This document shows positions 20,766 through 28,552 of a DNA stretch of 64,000 nucleotides, in pieces. The stretch is from Bacteriovoracaceae bacterium. GTDB lineage: Bacteria > Bdellovibrionota > Bacteriovoracia > Bacteriovoracales > Bacteriovoracaceae. The translations under genes and the position numbers were made by a program. The notes below the pieces were generated by a model. It was given only the letters and a program-made list of their open reading frames with translations. It was not told the DNA's origin and searched no databases. The stretch covers positions 62,001 to 126,000 of the forward strand of contig JANJTC010000001.1 of NCBI GenBank assembly GCA_024711325.1, read 5' to 3'. How positions within the stretch are numbered: the stretch's first letter is position 1; each line of letters begins with the position of its first letter.

Positions 20766-21347
20766 ATGGGCAAGTCAGTGGAAATTAGTTATCCTTTCTC
20801 TATGCAGGCCTATCTTAAAAAACATGGAACTGGACACGCTGGACACTCGCTAAAAGTGGAGTGGGATATTCGAGAACTCGATGTCATGATCCAGTTTTCC
20901 GTTAATAAAAGAAGCAGTCGAGCTTGGTATACGGATCCGGTTTTTGATCATGATTGGTCTAAAAATTGGGGTTTATGGAATAAAGATGTAGTGGAAGCTT
21001 TCCTCCAGTTAAGAAAGACTGCGGATGATTTTAAGGCCCCTTATTTAGAACTGCAAATCTCTCCCTTGAATCAGCCTTTTGCTCTCATTATTCAAGAACC
21101 ACGAAAGATTTTTCAAGCTCCTAAGGTTTTGGATTTTATTCACGAAGTTAATGTTGATGGTAAACTATGGACGGCCACAATGAAGTTCCAGCTTCCTTCA
21201 GAGCTGCAAGGATCATTAATCTATGGCGGTTTTTTTGCCTGTCTCGATCAGGAGCCTCGTGAGTTTTACGCTCTGGAACCTAATCCTGAACAAAATCCTG
21301 ACTTTCACCGACCTGAACTTTTTTTACCACTAAATATGCATGAGTGA
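20766..21347 (+). CDS. CBM9-like protein without signal peptide
   Basis: 193 residues from ATG 20766; a TTG at 20742 in the same frame would add eight residues. The body looks like family 9 carbohydrate-binding modules: W-x-TDPVFDHD then NKDVVEAFLQLR, YLELQISPLN, GGFFACLD and the closing FHRPELFLPL. Such modules occur alone in many bacteria, usually uncharacterised. There is no export signal, so any sugar bound is cytoplasmic. It overlaps the RsmI-like gene by 8 nt. Confidence 0.6.
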   Translation: MGKSVEISYPFSMQAYLKKHGTGHAGHSLKVEWDIRELDVMIQFSVNKRSSRAWYTDPVFDHDWSKNWGLWNKDVVEAFLQLRKTADDFKAPYLELQISPLNQPFALIIQEPRKIFQAPKVLDFIHEVNVDGKLWTATMKFQLPSELQGSLIYGGFFACLDQEPREFYALEPNPEQNPDFHRPELFLPLNMHE

Positions 21348-22032
21348 ATTAATTCTCATTCCCACTCCCATTGCTGATGATCTTCCCTTGGAACCGATGG
21401 CCCATTCCATGCTTTTAACTGATGCTTTAAAGGAAGAAGTTATACTCCTGGTTGAAGAGCACAAGGTGGGCCGTCAGCGTTGGCTTAAATGGGGACTTCC
21501 TCGAGAGGCGATCGATAAATTCCAGCTCTACAATGAACACACTCAAGGAAAGCTTGCGCCTGAGATCATCAAGTTTCTGCAGTCAGGGAAAAAAGTCTAC
21601 TTATTAAGTGATTGTGGATTACCGGCCTTTTGTGATCCTGGACAAAATTTAGTCGATCTTTGTCATAAGCTGGGGATTAGAGTCAGATCATCTCCCTTTC
21701 CCAACTCAATCGCTTTGGCGGTGGCCCTTTCAGGTTTTTCTCATTCAAGATTTTCTTTTTGCGGATTTGTACCAGTTAAAGAACCGGAGCGAGATCAATG
21801 GATACGTTTGGAACTTAAAAGATCTGAAACCCTGGTATGGATGGAAACCCCTTATCGATTGAAAAAACTTTTAGAGGATCTGATGCGGACGGGTACGAAG
21901 CGTGAGATATTTCTTGGTATGGACTTAGGCTCGGAAAATGAGAAGCTTCTCCGAGGATCTGTGTCTTATCTCAGTAGGCAGTTGGCCGATGGTGAGAAGC
22001 GCGAGTTTGTACTGGTCATCGGTCCTTTGTAA
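21340..22032 (+). CDS. RsmI-like SAM-dependent methyltransferase, diverged
   Basis: 230 residues of the tetrapyrrole-methylase fold. LILIPTPIAD near the N-terminus and SDCGLPAFCDPG (about 89-100) correspond to RsmI's ATPIGNL and SDAGTPLISDPG, followed by PNSIALAVALSGF (about 121-133) matching the second conserved block. RsmI itself makes the 2'-O-methyl of C1402 in 16S rRNA. The changed first motif and shorter length suggest a paralogue of unknown target. It is the second gene of a two-gene unit with the CBM9-like gene. Confidence 0.7.
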   Translation: MSELILIPTPIADDLPLEPMAHSMLLTDALKEEVILLVEEHKVGRQRWLKWGLPREAIDKFQLYNEHTQGKLAPEIIKFLQSGKKVYLLSDCGLPAFCDPGQNLVDLCHKLGIRVRSSPFPNSIALAVALSGFSHSRFSFCGFVPVKEPERDQWIRLELKRSETLVWMETPYRLKKLLEDLMRTGTKREIFLGMDLGSENEKLLRGSVSYLSRQLADGEKREFVLVIGPL

Positions 22033-22141: not shown

Positions 22142-23158
22142 ATGAAATCACCAAAAAAACTCCCTTTTTCTGATGAGTTAGCAGAAAGGAAGGGGGATCA
22201 TATTGAACTTGCTAAAAGAGCGAGAACTCTTTCTAGTGAAATTGATTTACGTTTTAATTACGAACCACTTTTCTTTTCTCATCCCAGTACAACCGATTCC
22301 TGGAAAACCTCATTTCTAGGTTTTGAGTTTGATTATCCTGTATGGATTTCAAGTATGACTGGTGGAACTGATCATGCAAAAAAGATTAATGAGAATCTGG
22401 CCCGTTTATGTGGGGAGTTCAAATTAGGTATGGGCCTTGGTTCTTGTCGATCCCTTTTAACGGACAGTTCTCGCTTAAATGAATTTGCTGTCAAAAAGTT
22501 TATGAAAGATAGTCCACTCTTTGCCAATATTGGTATCGCTCAAGTCGAAGAGTTGGTGATTAACCACAGTGAGTCTTTAATTCATGAGATGGTTAAGATG
22601 GTTGAGGCCGACGGGCTCATTATTCATATAAATCCTCTGCAAGAGTGGTTTCAGCCGGAGGGAGACCGTTATAAACTTCCGCCCCTTGAGACCCTGAAGC
22701 GTTTTTTAGAAAAATCAACTTATCCCGTTGTGATAAAAGAAGTCGGTCAAGGCATGGGACCTAGAAGCTTGCGGGCCCTTCTTGAGTTACCAATTGCTGC
22801 CATTGAGCTTGCGGCATTTGGCGGTACAAACTTCACCCTTCTTGAGAATATGCGTGGTGTGAAGGATGAAACGAGAGAAGCCTTTATTCATGTCGGCCAT
22901 ACCGCCTCTGAGATGGTGGAGATTTTAAATGCTCTTCCCACTCGTAATAAAGAAATTATTATTTCCGGCGGGATCAAATCAGTCCTTGATGGCTTTGAAC
23001 TAAAAACAAAACTTAAAACTAATTCTGTGATTGGCATGGCATCAGGGTTTCTGGCCCCTGCCCTCAAGGATTATGAAACTCTTCGAAACTATTTCCTGGG
23101 CCAGAGAGAAGCGCTTTTAACGGCGAAATCTCTACTCGAGCTGAGGGAGGAAACATGA
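22142..23158 (+). CDS. fni: Type 2 isopentenyl-diphosphate delta-isomerase
   Basis: FMN- and NADPH-dependent isomerase interconverting IPP and DMAPP. It shows SSMTGG (about 75-80), the substrate motif IHINPLQEWFQPEGD (about 157-171), VIKEVGQGMG (about 198-207) and FGGTNF (about 224-229). Length 338 is normal. It opens a six-gene operon: the next gene starts 4 nt before its stop. The nearest purine stretch before the ATG (TTGAGAATCT) is a weak ribosome binding site; a better one (AGGAGA at about 22088-22093) sits about 45 nt upstream before a five-codon frame. Confidence 0.94.
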   Translation: MKSPKKLPFSDELAERKGDHIELAKRARTLSSEIDLRFNYEPLFFSHPSTTDSWKTSFLGFEFDYPVWISSMTGGTDHAKKINENLARLCGEFKLGMGLGSCRSLLTDSSRLNEFAVKKFMKDSPLFANIGIAQVEELVINHSESLIHEMVKMVEADGLIIHINPLQEWFQPEGDRYKLPPLETLKRFLEKSTYPVVIKEVGQGMGPRSLRALLELPIAAIELAAFGGTNFTLLENMRGVKDETREAFIHVGHTASEMVEILNALPTRNKEIIISGGIKSVLDGFELKTKLKTNSVIGMASGFLAPALKDYETLRNYFLGQREALLTAKSLLELREET

Positions 23159-24465
23159 ACACAGTCAATGGCTTCTCTAAAATGACCAAAGAGCAAAAGA
23201 TAGAATGGCTCTCACTTCAGTTAAATGTAGAAGCAAGTTCGTTGGTTAAACAAATGCCGAATTTCTGGCACCAAGACCCTACCGTACAAAAACGATTTGA
23301 TGAATTCTCAGAAAATACTCTAACAAACTATAATTTGCCTTTTGGACTGGCCCCCAACTTTCTCATTAATGGTAAGGTTTATTCCGTGCCGATGGTCATT
23401 GAGGAATCATCTGTTGTGGCGGCCGCCTCTCTTGGGGCCAAGTTCTGGTTGGAAAGAGGTGGCTTTAAAAGTCAGGTCATATCTACGACTAAAGTGGGTC
23501 AGGTTCATTTTCAGTGGCAAGGAGAAAAAGAAAAAATCTATGAGTACTTTGAAGGTGCTAAAGAGCAATTCTTAAAAGCGGTCTCTCATCTCACAATCAA
23601 TATGGATCAAAGGGGAGGCGGAATTAAAAAACTTACCCTCATTGATATGACTGATAAAATTGAAAACTACTATCAGTTAAAAGTTGAAGCCCAAACCTGT
23701 GATGCCATGGGGGCGAATTTTATAAATTCAATTCTGGAAGAGATGGCCAAAGTATTGAAAGAGGGGGTCCTCCAAGATTCTCGTTTTGAAAATACTGAAA
23801 AAGAAGTGCACATCATTATGTGTATCCTTTCGAATTATACTCCGGACTGTATCGTGGAATGCTCTGTTGAGTGTCCTATCGAAGATCTGGGGAATTTCCC
23901 GGGAAATATTTCTGCCCGAGAATTTGCTGAGAAATTTGCGACGGCCGTAAGAATAGCGGAAGTTGATCCTAATCGGGCCGTGACCCATAACAAAGGCATC
24001 ATGAATGGCATTGATGCAGTGGTGATTGCCACCGGTAATGATTTTCGTGCGATTGAGGCCTGTGCTCATGCATATGCTGCTCGTGATGGTCAGTACCGCT
24101 CCCTTTCAACCGTTAGTCTGAATGGAGATAATTTTAAATTTAGCCTGAGGGTTCCTCTTGCCGTTGGCACTGTGGGCGGTCTTACTTCACTTCATCCTTT
24201 GGCAAAAACCTCTCTTGCCATTCTTGAACATCCAACAGCTTCTGAATTAATGAATATTATGGCAGCGGTAGGACTTGCTCAAAATTTTGGCGCAGTAAAA
24301 TCTTTAGTGACGACGGGGATCCAGAAAGGTCACATGAAACTGCATTTGCTCAATATTCTTAAGCAGCTTGATGCTTCTCTGGAGCAAATCGAGAAAGGAA
24401 AAGAATTTTTTGCGGATAAAGTTGTCTCTTTCACGGCCGTTCGTGATTTCTTAAAAAACAATTAA
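23155..24465 (+). CDS. mvaA: HMG-CoA reductase, class II
   Basis: Reduces HMG-CoA to mevalonate. The 436-residue length and sequence (NYNLPFGLAPNFLING, then VIEESSVVAAAS with the catalytic Glu, DAMGANFINSI, GTVGGLTSLHPLAKTSL, and HMKLHLLN with the catalytic His) fit the bacterial class II enzymes. These are often called degradative, but beside mevalonate kinases the role is biosynthetic. It overlaps fni by 4 nt. Cofactor preference (NADH or NADPH) is not decided. Confidence 0.94.
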   Translation: MNTVNGFSKMTKEQKIEWLSLQLNVEASSLVKQMPNFWHQDPTVQKRFDEFSENTLTNYNLPFGLAPNFLINGKVYSVPMVIEESSVVAAASLGAKFWLERGGFKSQVISTTKVGQVHFQWQGEKEKIYEYFEGAKEQFLKAVSHLTINMDQRGGGIKKLTLIDMTDKIENYYQLKVEAQTCDAMGANFINSILEEMAKVLKEGVLQDSRFENTEKEVHIIMCILSNYTPDCIVECSVECPIEDLGNFPGNISAREFAEKFATAVRIAEVDPNRAVTHNKGIMNGIDAVVIATGNDFRAIEACAHAYAARDGQYRSLSTVSLNGDNFKFSLRVPLAVGTVGGLTSLHPLAKTSLAILEHPTASELMNIMAAVGLAQNFGAVKSLVTTGIQKGHMKLHLLNILKQLDASLEQIEKGKEFFADKVVSFTAVRDFLKNN

Positions 24466-24475
24466 AGGTAGGACT

Positions 24476-25420
24476 ATGCGAGATCAATTTTTTTACGGTC
24501 ACGGAAAGCTTTTATTGTCAGGCGAATACTTTGTTTTAGAAGGTGCCGAGGCCCTGGCCTTGCCTACTACCGTAGGTCAGAGTATGAAAGTTAAGTACCG
24601 TCACTCCTATCAACCGACACTTAACTGGAAAAGTATTGATCATACTGGAAAGGTTTGGTTTGAAGGAGACTTTGAGTTCTGGCATTTTAAACCAATCCGT
24701 CCTCAGGGAAATATTACTGAAAAATTTATTCAGGACGCACTCTGTGCGGTAAGACTGCAAAATCCACACTTCCTACGGGATGAGATGGATGTCTTCGTGG
24801 AAACCAAGATCGAATTTCCACTTGAGTGGGGTTTGGGTTCAAGCTCAAGCTTTATGTATAACGTTGCCCAATGGGCCTACGTGAGTCCTTTTGAGCTTTT
24901 AAAAAGAACGATTGGTGGTTCCGGATACGATCTGGCCTGCGCTCAGGCGATGGGACCTATCCTTTATAAAAAGTATGAAGGAAAACCTCAGTGGGAAGCG
25001 GCCGCATTTAATCCGCTTTTTAAAGATCAGCTATTCTTTGTTTATCTCGGACATAAGCAGAATTCAGAGCAGGAAGTGATTAAATTCTCTGACATGCAAA
25101 TTGAGAATAAAGCACTGATCATTGCTGAACTCTCGCAACTAACTCGTGAGATGTTGCATTCCCATGATTTGGTGACCTTTAATAAAATCATTAAAACTCA
25201 TGAAGAGATTATTGCTAAAGCTCTTAATTATGAAAAAGTGAAAGACCTTCTTTTTAAAGATTTTTGGGGAGAAGTGAAATCCCTCGGGGCCTGGGGTGGA
25301 GATTTTGCTCTGGTCACATCTGACCGCACTCACACCGAAACCCGGGAATATTTTGAGAGTCGTGGTTTTACAACTGTTATCCCTTATACTGAAATCGTAA
25401 GATCGGAATCCCTTCAATGA
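24476..25420 (+). CDS. GYDIA-type GHMP kinase, probable phosphomevalonate kinase
   Basis: 314 residues of the GHMP kinase family. Motif 1 is HGKLLLSGEYFVLEGAEALA (about 9-28), motif 2 is EWGLGSSSS (about 119-127), SGYDLACAQA (about 149-158) gives the GYDIA-type name motif, and GAWGGDFALV (about 272-281) takes the place of the usual GAGGGG motif 3. This subfamily is typical of Bacteroidetes mevalonate clusters. Because the operon already has a mevalonate kinase and a decarboxylase, the missing phosphomevalonate kinase step is assigned here by elimination. An AAAGGTAGG ribosome binding site precedes the ATG; the stop overlaps mvaD by 4 nt. Confidence 0.78.
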   Translation: MRDQFFYGHGKLLLSGEYFVLEGAEALALPTTVGQSMKVKYRHSYQPTLNWKSIDHTGKVWFEGDFEFWHFKPIRPQGNITEKFIQDALCAVRLQNPHFLRDEMDVFVETKIEFPLEWGLGSSSSFMYNVAQWAYVSPFELLKRTIGGSGYDLACAQAMGPILYKKYEGKPQWEAAAFNPLFKDQLFFVYLGHKQNSEQEVIKFSDMQIENKALIIAELSQLTREMLHSHDLVTFNKIIKTHEEIIAKALNYEKVKDLLFKDFWGEVKSLGAWGGDFALVTSDRTHTETREYFESRGFTTVIPYTEIVRSESLQ

Positions 25421-26463
25421 GTTTACTTGCCCCTTTTAAAGAATGTACCCCAAATGACTTTGAGGCAACCTGGCGATCGCCTTCAAACATCGCTTTTGTA
25501 AAGTACTGGGGAAAGAAAGGTCATCAAATTCCGGCCAATCCATCTCTTTCAATGACGCTGAAAGAATGTTTTACGGAAACAAAAGTTTCTTTTAAACAAA
25601 ATGGCGAACTCACAGTAGACCTCTTCCTTGATGGCCATCCGGAAGGCAGGTTCGCTGGGAAGATTAAAACTTATCTTGAGAGTTTGCAGAGCGATTTACC
25701 TTGGTTGAAAAATCTTGGTGTTACAATTCATACTAAAAATACATTCCCTCATGGTACGGGAATTGCCTCTTCCGCTTCAGGGATGTCGGCCTTTGCCCTT
25801 TGTTTGACTGATTATTTACATCATCTTGGACAAGAAGATATTGGAGAACTTTTTAGTAAGCGGGCCAGCTGCCTTGCAAGGCTAGCTAGTGGAAGCGCCT
25901 GTCGTTCGATTTATGGTGGCTTTACGACCTGGGGTGAGAGTGAGTTGCCTGAATCTTCGGATAAGTATGCTACCCCTTTTAGTGTACACCCGGATTTTGC
26001 TCACTTAAAAGATTCTGTCCTCATTATAAGTGCTGAAGAAAAGACTGTTTCCAGTCGTGCCGGTCATGACCGTATGATAGAACATGCATTTGCTGAAGCC
26101 CGTTTTGTTCAGGCTAAAAAGAATTTTTCTTTGATGGTAAGTGCTTTAAAGTCCGGTGACGCTGATGAGATGGGCCGCATTTTGGAAAGTGAAGCTTTAA
26201 GTCTTCATGCCATGATGATGACCTCTCCAAATGCTTACACTCTTCTTCGTCCCAATACTCTGGCAGCGATGGAAATGATCTGGGCCTTCAGACGTGAGAC
26301 ACAGCTTCCCTTATACTTTACGCTAGATGCTGGACCTAACCTGCATTTAATTTATCCAGAAGTCTTTCAGCACAAAATTAAAACCTTTATTTCTCACGAA
26401 CTATCACCTCTGACTCAAAGAATAATTGAAGATGAAAGAGGTGAAGGTGCTGTTAAATGTTAA
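25417..26463 (+). CDS. mvaD: Diphosphomevalonate decarboxylase
   Basis: Makes IPP from mevalonate diphosphate with ATP. SPSNIAFVKYWGKKG (about 21-35) is the family signature; TGIASSASGMSAFAL (about 114-128) is the ATP loop, SGSACRSIYGGF (about 153-164) follows, and YFTLDAGPNLHL (about 294-305) carries the catalytic Asp. Length 348 is normal. It overlaps genes on both sides in the isoprenoid operon. Confidence 0.93.
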   Translation: MSLLAPFKECTPNDFEATWRSPSNIAFVKYWGKKGHQIPANPSLSMTLKECFTETKVSFKQNGELTVDLFLDGHPEGRFAGKIKTYLESLQSDLPWLKNLGVTIHTKNTFPHGTGIASSASGMSAFALCLTDYLHHLGQEDIGELFSKRASCLARLASGSACRSIYGGFTTWGESELPESSDKYATPFSVHPDFAHLKDSVLIISAEEKTVSSRAGHDRMIEHAFAEARFVQAKKNFSLMVSALKSGDADEMGRILESEALSLHAMMMTSPNAYTLLRPNTLAAMEMIWAFRRETQLPLYFTLDAGPNLHLIYPEVFQHKIKTFISHELSPLTQRIIEDERGEGAVKC

Positions 26464-27329
26464 AAACATTCCCGGCCAAGGTTTTACTCCTTGGAGAATA
26501 TACCATCTTGAATGGGTCTAAAGCTCTTGCACTTCCTTACCATCAAATGCAGGGCCAATGGTCTTTTCATGACAATGGAACACAAGAGCGAGAAAATTCT
26601 CGCAAGAGTCTTTTCGCCTTCATGGAAAATTCAGGTGTTCGGACGGTTGATCTGGGTTTAATGAAAAAAGATTTGGAAGGGGGAATGTGGTTTGATTCTC
26701 CTATTCCCCATGGCTTTGGTCTAGGTAGCTCCGGTGCGGTGATTGCTGCCATCTATGACCGTTTTGGAAATCCAACAGGTGATTTGGTCGAAGATGCCAA
26801 AGCACTGGCAAGATTAGAAGATTTTTTTCATGGCTCAAGCTCGGGACTAGATCCTTTAGTGAGTCATGTCCAAAAACCGCTTCTAATTCATAGTTTTAGC
26901 GAGGTTGAAGTACTCACCAATGGGCCAGAACTAAAAGATTTTTTTCTAGTCAACACAGGTAAGCCGCGTCAAACCGGTCCTCTGGTTAATATTTACCAGG
27001 AGAAAATGAAAGATCCACAGTTCAAGCAAGGTTGTGCTGATATTCTTTCGACTGAAGTCAATTTTGCTATCGACTCTGTTCTAAAAAATGATCCCGTAAA
27101 TCTTTTTCATCATTTATGGCATATCTCTAAATTTCAATGGGAATTTTTTCCTGAAATGATTCCTACTAAGGAGCGTGGGCTCTGGACAAGAGGACTTGAA
27201 ACGGGGGACTATATTTTAAAATTATGTGGTGCAGGTGGCGGAGGATTCATTCTTGGTCACAGCCATAAGTTTAGTCTTGATGAAATGCGCCAGATATTAA
27301 ACACCCATGAACTAAGGGAACTAAAATGA
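26457..27329 (+). CDS. Mevalonate kinase, Bacteroidetes-like
   Basis: 290-residue GHMP kinase: FPAKVLLLGEYTILNGSKAL (about 4-23), the ATP loop PHGFGLGSSGAV (about 83-94), FFHGSSSGLDPL (about 123-134) with the catalytic Asp, and GAGGGGFILG (about 260-269). The wording and short length match mevalonate kinases of Flavobacteria rather than the usual longer enzymes. It overlaps mvaD by 7 nt and the GH15 gene by 4 nt. Confidence 0.85.
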   Translation: MLKTFPAKVLLLGEYTILNGSKALALPYHQMQGQWSFHDNGTQERENSRKSLFAFMENSGVRTVDLGLMKKDLEGGMWFDSPIPHGFGLGSSGAVIAAIYDRFGNPTGDLVEDAKALARLEDFFHGSSSGLDPLVSHVQKPLLIHSFSEVEVLTNGPELKDFFLVNTGKPRQTGPLVNIYQEKMKDPQFKQGCADILSTEVNFAIDSVLKNDPVNLFHHLWHISKFQWEFFPEMIPTKERGLWTRGLETGDYILKLCGAGGGGFILGHSHKFSLDEMRQILNTHELRELK

Positions 27330-28552
27330 AATTTTTAGCCGTACTTCTTCTTCTACCATCAATTGCCATGGCCATTCCTTCCAAACAAGTGCAGTTCAAA
27401 AACAGCTTAAAGGTAGTCATTGATAACTCAACTAGGCCGGACGTAAGACCAGGTATGGTTGTTGCCAGCCCTAGTCGATCTAATCCTGACTATTATTTTG
27501 ATTGGGTTCGCGACACTGCCCTTACTTACCGGGCCTTAATTGATTATTATGAACTCAAAAAAGATCCAAAAATTAAGAAAATGATTTTTACCTGGATCGA
27601 TGCTGAAGCTTACCGTCAGAATCAACCAACTTTTACTGGTCTTGGTGAGCCTAAATATTTTATAGATGGTTCAGGATATACTGGCGGCTGGGGTCGACCG
27701 CAAAATGATGGCCCAGCACTTAGAGCGATTGCCATGATTAAGTTCGCTCGTCTTCTCTTGAAGGAAGGTCATCAGGACTATGTGCTAAAAGTTCTCTATC
27801 ACGGCGTTTTACCGGCCGACTCAGTCATTAAAAAAGATCTGGAGTATACGGCCCATCATTGGAGAGAGCCGAGTTTTGACTTATGGGAAGAAGAAATGGG
27901 GATGCATTTCTATACCTTGTTAGCTCAATATACAGCACTTCAAGAAGGGGAAAAACTAGCACGCGAATTAAGTGATAGCGCGGCTGCGGATTTTTATAAA
28001 GGTGAATCTCTTAAGATCGCTTCTATGCTGAAAAAAGATTTCATAGATTCTGAAATAGGGATTAAAACAACTATTCGCCGTGTGAATGGAGGTCTGGGCT
28101 ATAAAAATTCGAATGTCGATGTGGCCCCGCTTTTAGCTCTTCTGCATAACTCTCCCTATCAGACTCTTTTTTCTTTTAAGAGTCCGGCAGTAAAACGTTA
28201 TGTTGAAACCTTAACTTCAACATTTAAAAATCTTTATTCGATTAATAAGACTTTCCCGGATATGGGAGTTGCTATTGGCCGCTATCCTGAAGACCGCTAT
28301 GATGGCTACGCTACTTCTGGAATTGGTAATCCTTGGTTTCTCGCCACTCTTGCACTTGGGGAGTATCACTGTCAGGCGGGAGAGAAAGGCAAAACCCAGA
28401 AGCAATTTGAACGTGTGCTTTTTCATTCAGATAGAAAGGGCGGTATGTCTGAGCAGTTTAACCACGTTAGCGGACATATGCAGGGTGCTTATGAGTTAAC
28501 CTGGTCTCACAATGCATTCATGACGGCCATGATGAGATGTAATCAAATCTAA
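27326..28552 (+). CDS. Secreted glucoamylase, glycoside hydrolase family 15
   Basis: Releases glucose from starch or glycogen ends. 408 residues with a signal peptide (MKFLAVLLLLPSIAMA). The GH15 core shows YYFDWVRDTALTYRALID (about 53-70) and GGWGRPQNDGPALRAIAM (about 117-134). The general acid is in WEEEMGMHFYTLLAQY (about 190-205) and the general base in SEQFN (about 374-378) ahead of LTWSHNAF. There is no starch-binding module. Its ATG overlaps the stop of the mevalonate kinase gene, an unexpected partner for isoprenoid genes. A strong terminator follows. Glycogen of prey or its own store are possible substrates; this is inference. Confidence 0.9.
   Translation: MKFLAVLLLLPSIAMAIPSKQVQFKNSLKVVIDNSTRPDVRPGMVVASPSRSNPDYYFDWVRDTALTYRALIDYYELKKDPKIKKMIFTWIDAEAYRQNQPTFTGLGEPKYFIDGSGYTGGWGRPQNDGPALRAIAMIKFARLLLKEGHQDYVLKVLYHGVLPADSVIKKDLEYTAHHWREPSFDLWEEEMGMHFYTLLAQYTALQEGEKLARELSDSAAADFYKGESLKIASMLKKDFIDSEIGIKTTIRRVNGGLGYKNSNVDVAPLLALLHNSPYQTLFSFKSPAVKRYVETLTSTFKNLYSINKTFPDMGVAIGRYPEDRYDGYATSGIGNPWFLATLALGEYHCQAGEKGKTQKQFERVLFHSDRKGGMSEQFNHVSGHMQGAYELTWSHNAFMTAMMRCNQI

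Follow-up and report, generated by a model that had tools for sequence, protein, structure and literature searches.

Which protein supplies phosphomevalonate kinase (PMK) to a mevalonate operon in which one gene encodes a GHMP kinase of the GYDIA family, a family whose name gives no function? The question is raised by a 64,000-nucleotide stretch of a Bacteriovoracaceae genome, called the window here in its whole length, which contains the genes of a type 2 isopentenyl-diphosphate isomerase (IDI2), an HMG-CoA reductase (HMGR), a GYDIA protein, a diphosphomevalonate decarboxylase (MVD) and a mevalonate kinase (MVK). They are arranged head-to-tail in the order IDI2-HMGR-GYDIA-MVD-MVK, and neighbouring genes overlap by 4 to 7 bases, except for one pair that is 10 bases apart (Table 1). 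The host, a relative of predatory bacteria, is represented by a 93% complete genome of 7 contigs and 3.55 Mb. Mevalonate-pathway genes have been reported to be enriched in predatory bacteria (PMC4646340).

The original prediction stated that this operon holds no other candidate for PMK, and this is borne out, as the remaining genes IDI2, HMGR, MVD and MVK are all occupied. Its central claim, that the GYDIA protein is the missing PMK, gains support from a genome-wide elimination, the operon slot and a signature aspartate, and on these sequence-based grounds the protein is very probably a PMK. It has a predicted GHMP fold, the catalytic Lys and Asp motifs, a PMK-type Asp and a fitting slot, and no alternative was detected; from these features we infer its substrate and activity. 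In the proposed pathway, HMGR would make mevalonate, which the kinase encoded at 26457 would convert to mevalonate 5-phosphate. GYDIA would then phosphorylate 5-phosphomevalonate at its 5-phosphate with the gamma-phosphate of ATP, yielding 5-diphosphomevalonate. MVD would turn this diphosphate into IPP, and IDI2 would make DMAPP, as in a conventional mevalonate route.

Table 1. The mevalonate operon of the window and the sequence motifs of its GYDIA protein.
Feature	Position	Strand	Basis and remarks
Type 2 isopentenyl-diphosphate isomerase (IDI2)	22142..23158	+	TIGR02151 208.3 bits, below cut-off 281.3; first operon gene
HMG-CoA reductase (HMGR), class II type	23155..24465	+	TIGR00532 272.7 bits, above cut-off 259.95; PF00368 306.9 bits
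GYDIA-family GHMP kinase, proposed PMK	24476..25420	+	NF040656 and model pLDDT
Diphosphomevalonate decarboxylase (MVD)	25417..26463	+	TIGR01240 181.2 bits, above cut-off 171.35
Mevalonate kinase (MVK)	26457..27329	+	Best model, motif and slot; TIGR00549 66.9 bits, below cut-off 163.05
GHMP motif 1, GHGKLLLSGEY, with K11	24497..24529	+	Sequence, alignment
GHMP motif 2, FPLEWGLGSSS	24815..24847	+	Sequence
Catalytic-Asp motif, GGSGYDLACA (D152)	24914..24943	+	Sequence, alignment
Motif 3, KSLGAWGGDF, with PMK-type Asp D276	25277..25306	+	Alignment

The GYDIA reading frame starts with ATG and encodes 314 amino acids. The protein matches the NCBIfam model NF040656 (GHMP_GYDIA) with 346.9 bits at a cut-off of 225 and over the full length of the profile (residues 6-308 on positions 2-299 of 299), and thus belongs to the GYDIA family. 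The model is of the hypoth_equivalog kind (NCBIfam release 20.0). In a Pfam search the protein reaches no cut-off. TIGR01220, the model of the canonical bacterial PMK (cut-off 165.7 bits), does not match it at E<=0.1 and matches none of 16 family members at E<=1, and the MVK model TIGR00549 gives it 24.2 bits, below the cut-off of 163.05. GYDIA likely forms a GHMP branch of its own, outside the canonical bacterial PMK family, as far as sequence comparison can tell. Its structure is predicted with a mean pLDDT of 94.2. In one locus (L070, G141:C8:34769-35659), a second, divergent GYDIA copy with 34% identity to the window protein adjoins the operon on the opposite strand.

The catalytic Lys and Asp of the protein have counterparts in other GHMP branches, including kinase X, our label for a divergent GHMP kinase that each of 20 loci fetched from the remaining Bdellovibrionota families contains (L082-L101; e.g., L091:4004-4972 on the forward strand). 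G10, K11 and E17 of motif 1 are invariant in 49 of 49 GYDIA rows, and K11 aligns with a Lys in every MVK, X and PMK row that covers this position. Motif 2, which we take to be the ATP phosphate loop, contains the invariant residues F114, W118, G119, G121, S123 and S124. The catalytic D152 aligns with an Asp in MVK (14 of 14 rows), X (14 of 14) and PMK (7 of 7), and the surrounding GGSGYDLAC looks closer to the PMK forms GSMGDLAC and GSGGDLAA than to the SSGLD motif (SSGLDPLVS) of the operon MVK.

The original prediction described motif 3 as altered, with GAWGGDF in place of GAGGGG, and therefore made the assignment by elimination. The altered form is indeed present (residues 271-277 of the window protein), but GAGGGG is the form of MVK, including the operon MVK with its GAGGGGF, and the Asp end is PMK-like, so that the alteration does not weaken the assignment. 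Canonical PMKs carry KSSGSGGGDC, KSSGAGGGDC, KTSGAGGGDC or KPSGAGGGDC; because these end in Asp (e.g., GAGGGDC), where MVK has Gly, GAWGGD is PMK-like, and only the Trp and the Phe are unusual. In one alignment, position 276 is Asp in GYDIA (10 of 10), X (14 of 14) and canonical PMK (7 of 7), whereas it is Gly in all 14 MVK rows. When the ORFs of the collected loci, not all from independent organisms, are sorted by similarity class, an Asp closes motif 3 in 106/106 GYDIA, 17/18 X (one unreadable) and 0/71 MVK sequences; the MVK class has 64 Gly, one off-pattern and six unreadable ends. Within the GYDIA family the motif is near-constant, reading KSLGAWGGD in 105 of 106 ORFs and KSLGSWGGD in one, with some organisms represented twice.

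GYDIA thus shares with canonical PMK (TIGR01220; PDB 1k47, 3gon, 3k17) the GHMP fold, the catalytic Asp in GSxxD[ILV]A and the Asp-ended motif 3. The last two make up a PMK residue pattern that is found in the GYDIA protein and was derived here from seven PMKs, not taken from a published definition. GYDIA differs from canonical PMK in the missing TIGR01220 match, in the Trp and Phe of motif 3, in length (362-374 residues in five PMKs and 337 in 1k47) and in Lys194, which occupies a position with Pro or Val in PMKs. This Lys is found in GYDIA (10 of 10) and X (14 of 14), and the position is variable in MVKs; it is only a guess that the invariant Lys194, common to both kinases, contacts the substrate phosphate.

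By overall similarity, MVK (TIGR00549; PDB 1kkh, 6mde), which has the same GHMP fold, is the family nearest to GYDIA. Profile comparison gives 97.3% (E 2.3e-11) against the operon MVK and 20.5% (E 1.1e-3) against canonical PMK, the latter alignment having only five rows, four of them from Streptomyces. Among the 16 GYDIA members, single-protein HMM searches yield matches to TIGR00549 in 16, to ERG8 in two and to Arch_PMK in one, and sequence searches of the PDB with GYDIA return, among kinases, MVKs only. The ranking of single HMMs was discarded as a discriminator, since the MVK model weakly matches not only the two operon kinases but also a sugar-kinase-like protein encoded elsewhere in the genome. 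Superposition of the predicted GYDIA structure by VIA-align places on top the PMKs 3k17 (Z 26.0, rmsd 3.4, 288 residues aligned) and 3gon (Z 25.6, 2.9, 276), which lends weak support to a PMK, but they are tied with the MVK 8tfo (Z 25.1, 3.4, 291); Foldseek lists MVKs first, with the PMK 3k17 at rank 8. A Listeria gene near-identical to 3k17 is annotated as PMK. The fold was likewise rejected as a discriminator between PMK and MVK, because a control model of the operon MVK (pLDDT 91.8) has the same top chain, 3k17 (Z 21.7), tied with MVKs. Tree tests return p-AU values of 0.264 for GYDIA+PMK, 0.273 for GYDIA+X, 0.247 for GYDIA+X+PMK and 0.0616 for GYDIA+MVK, which is not formally rejected, and phylogeny was set aside as well, the branches being long and the tests singling out no one placement. 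A second tree was calculated with five partial or very long rows removed. The row sets comprised the window and 15 of 30 loci (A1), 13 of 20 loci (A2), the window and 48 of 80 loci (A3), and the window and 20 of 22 loci tried (A4).

These similarities bear on a swap of roles, with GYDIA as mevalonate kinase and the 26457 kinase as PMK. Such a swap would agree with the profile proximity of GYDIA to MVK and with the low score of the 26457 kinase on the MVK model, which at 66.9 of 163 even stays below the 74.0 bits of the sugar-kinase-like protein. The same model, however, ranks the 26457 kinase above GYDIA (66.9 versus 24.2), and it is the 26457 kinase that has the MVK form GAGGGG in motif 3, while GYDIA has the PMK-type Asp. 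In other families, too, the kinase downstream of MVD shows Gly wherever the motif can be read, and X, upstream of MVD, shows Asp, although the motif counts are by similarity class and not by slot. A swap is therefore improbable. A single kinase performing both phosphorylations, with the other being regulatory or acting on another substrate, would be compatible with all sequence results, the GHMP fold being common to both proteins, but it is less probable still: both families keep their catalytic motifs with little or no variation, and the two genes are retained together in 32 of 33 family loci.

The assignment of GYDIA as PMK was originally reached by elimination. The elimination holds and now extends to the whole genome, and it is no longer the sole basis, as the slot and D276 have been added. 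A canonical PMK elsewhere in the genome, which the original prediction had named as a finding that would refute it, is not seen with TIGR01220 even at E<=10 in the 93%-complete genome. The GHMP_N matches of the host are a galactokinase, which adjoins a galT-like gene, the sugar-kinase-like protein, MVD, MVK, GYDIA and one weak match in a locus without any visible GHMP gene. The best model of the sugar-kinase-like protein (L003) is TIGR00549, with a score slightly above that of the operon MVK, followed by fucokinase (65.5) and heptose kinase (36.0), all below cut-off; we judge it to be a sugar kinase because of its N-terminal sequence and because its gene lies outside the operon. A profile search found no IspG in the 93% complete genome.

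Mevalonate routes that bypass PMK occur in archaea and some Chloroflexi and require an isopentenyl phosphate kinase (PMC9254496, PMC9385802). That the host uses such a bypass (phosphomevalonate decarboxylase plus isopentenyl phosphate kinase, or the archaeal/Thermoplasma type) and GYDIA does something else is the least probable reading, given that MVD exceeds the diphosphomevalonate decarboxylase cut-off and scores far below the models of phosphomevalonate decarboxylase (NF040704, 91.1 of 475) and bisphosphomevalonate decarboxylase (NF040847, 46.3 of 560), so that a PMK product should be its substrate, and that no isopentenyl phosphate kinase was found, the three AA_kinase matches of the host being aspartokinase, ProB (glutamate 5-kinase) and PyrH (UMP kinase). 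A diphosphomevalonate-type decarboxylase without an isopentenyl phosphate kinase corresponds to the eukaryote-type route. The HMG-CoA synthase of that route is not seen in the host genome with PF08540, and the archaeal-type model TIGR00748 has no match over cut-off there, with weak matches up to 51.3 bits. PF08540 is found in 2/41 genomes of the window's family and 1/144 of the phylum; TIGR00748 exceeds its cut-off in 0/144 phylum genomes and has weak matches in 143/144, the best at 78.5 bits. HMG-CoA could come from a divergent KAS-III-like protein, from leucine breakdown or from prey.

In a survey of 144 Bdellovibrionota genomes, 34 have a GYDIA match above the cut-off, and all of these belong to the window's family; eight further genomes, all outside it, have weak matches (E 1.7e-6 to 8.6e-4). 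The MVD N-domain is present in 112 genomes (109 over cut-off), including all 34 with GYDIA. IspG matches occur in 26 genomes, none of them in the window's family and none among the 34. TIGR01220 matches at E<=0.001 in eight genomes, one of them in the window's family, and exceeds its cut-off in none; this cut-off is strict, since it is not exceeded in any of 14 control genomes either, Lactococcus included. Of the nine matching loci (L038-L046), five were read (L038, L039, L040, L042, L045) and four were not (L041, L043, L044, L046). By our reading these five are not PMKs: L038 is MVK-like, L040 is an MVK whose neighbour is an MVD, and the other three (L039, L042, L045), which include the match in the window's own family, resemble sugar kinases.

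Within the window's family, IDI2, HMGR, GYDIA and MVD are kept in order in all 33 fetched loci, and MVK is detected in 32; a stricter, ORF-based count finds HMGR upstream in 32, MVD downstream in 31 and MVK downstream in 31. The neighbourhood also includes, before the operon (21340-22032), a gene resembling 16S rRNA (cytidine-2'-O)-methyltransferase (TIGR00096, 92.5 bits, below cut-off), which is found in 28 of the 33 loci. A glycoside hydrolase family 15 gene (27326-28552) overlaps the operon end and is found in only three.

Elsewhere in the phylum, kinase X generally takes the place between HMGR and MVD. The order HMGR-X-MVD is present in 17 of the 20 loci; in two, X lies directly before MVD with no HMGR preceding, and in one it lies beside HMGR on the other strand. 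Kinase X, with motifs such as PSGADLVAQ and KGCGALGAD, shares with GYDIA this slot, the motif 3 Asp and Lys194. It differs in motif 2 (GGFGASTAQ) and in being nearer to canonical PMK by profile (97.4%, E 1e-11). The X profile matches the PMK structures 3k17, 1k47 and 3gon, plus several MVKs, and its best NCBIfam matches are mevalonate kinase models. The GYDIA model matches five of 13 X proteins with a best E of only 0.0044, and profile comparison of GYDIA with X gives 97.4% over the C-terminal half. GYDIA thus sits where relatives carry a PMK-like kinase, and kinase X is probably the PMK of its families.

Among the best 80 of 590 relatives kept, 62 loci are from Bacteroidota (Flavobacteriaceae, Saprospiraceae and others) and 18 carry labels such as Bacteriovoracaceae, Halobacteriovorax, Bdellovibrionales, Oligoflexia or Proteobacteria. 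The window protein shares the motifs of the NF040656 family, and among these best 80 of 590, where some contigs are short, 46 of the 62 Bacteroidota loci have an HMGR gene no more than 900 bases upstream of GYDIA. The Bacteroidota loci differ in that a complete lower-pathway operon, as in the window, is rare among them, MVD and MVK following directly downstream in only four of the 62. HMGR of the window is 52-58% identical to Bacteroidota HMGR and 32-39% identical to that of other Bdellovibrionota loci, and in an HMGR tree of 46 rows the window's family groups with Bacteroidota (100/100) and not with the other members of its phylum. By HMGR and MVD identities and the HMGR tree, the region 22142-27329 is much closer to Bacteroidota (L124, L146, L167, L174) than to its own phylum. 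Most likely, these comparisons suggest, the operon, or at least this part of it, was exchanged between the window's family and Bacteroidota, in either direction.

A literature search on the family name GYDIA returned only unrelated work on insects or mates. Hayakawa et al., in 2017, reportedly described in Flavobacterium johnsoniae a mevalonate route of the normal type whose kinases are distant relatives of the known ones. This work probably already covers the assignment of GYDIA as PMK in Flavobacterium, and the original expectation that the present case would define what an entire subfamily does is thus probably pre-empted for Bacteroidota. According to another study, PMK seems to be missing in Flavobacteriaceae and a non-orthologous GHMP kinase is a possible substitute; a homoserine kinase and a galactokinase gene are then named (PMC4026382). 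The PMK assignment is ordinary in kind and useful as annotation; more novel are the occurrence of kinase X in this slot and the use of a single residue as a marker.

On balance we favour the view, with some reserve, that Bdellovibrionota fill a single operon slot with either of two different non-canonical PMK families. In the window's family this would be GYDIA, which would have arrived with the operon through the Bacteroidota exchange; most other families would have the undescribed kinase X. No PMK exceeds the standard-model cut-off in any of the 144 phylum genomes, and if GYDIA, and probably kinase X, were annotated as PMK, the pathway would be closed in these genomes, which would no longer be scored as incomplete. 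The Asp that ends motif 3 would be a simple residue test to separate PMK-like from MVK-like GHMP kinases and, if the reading of two PMK families is true, it would mark PMK activity across several GHMP branches.
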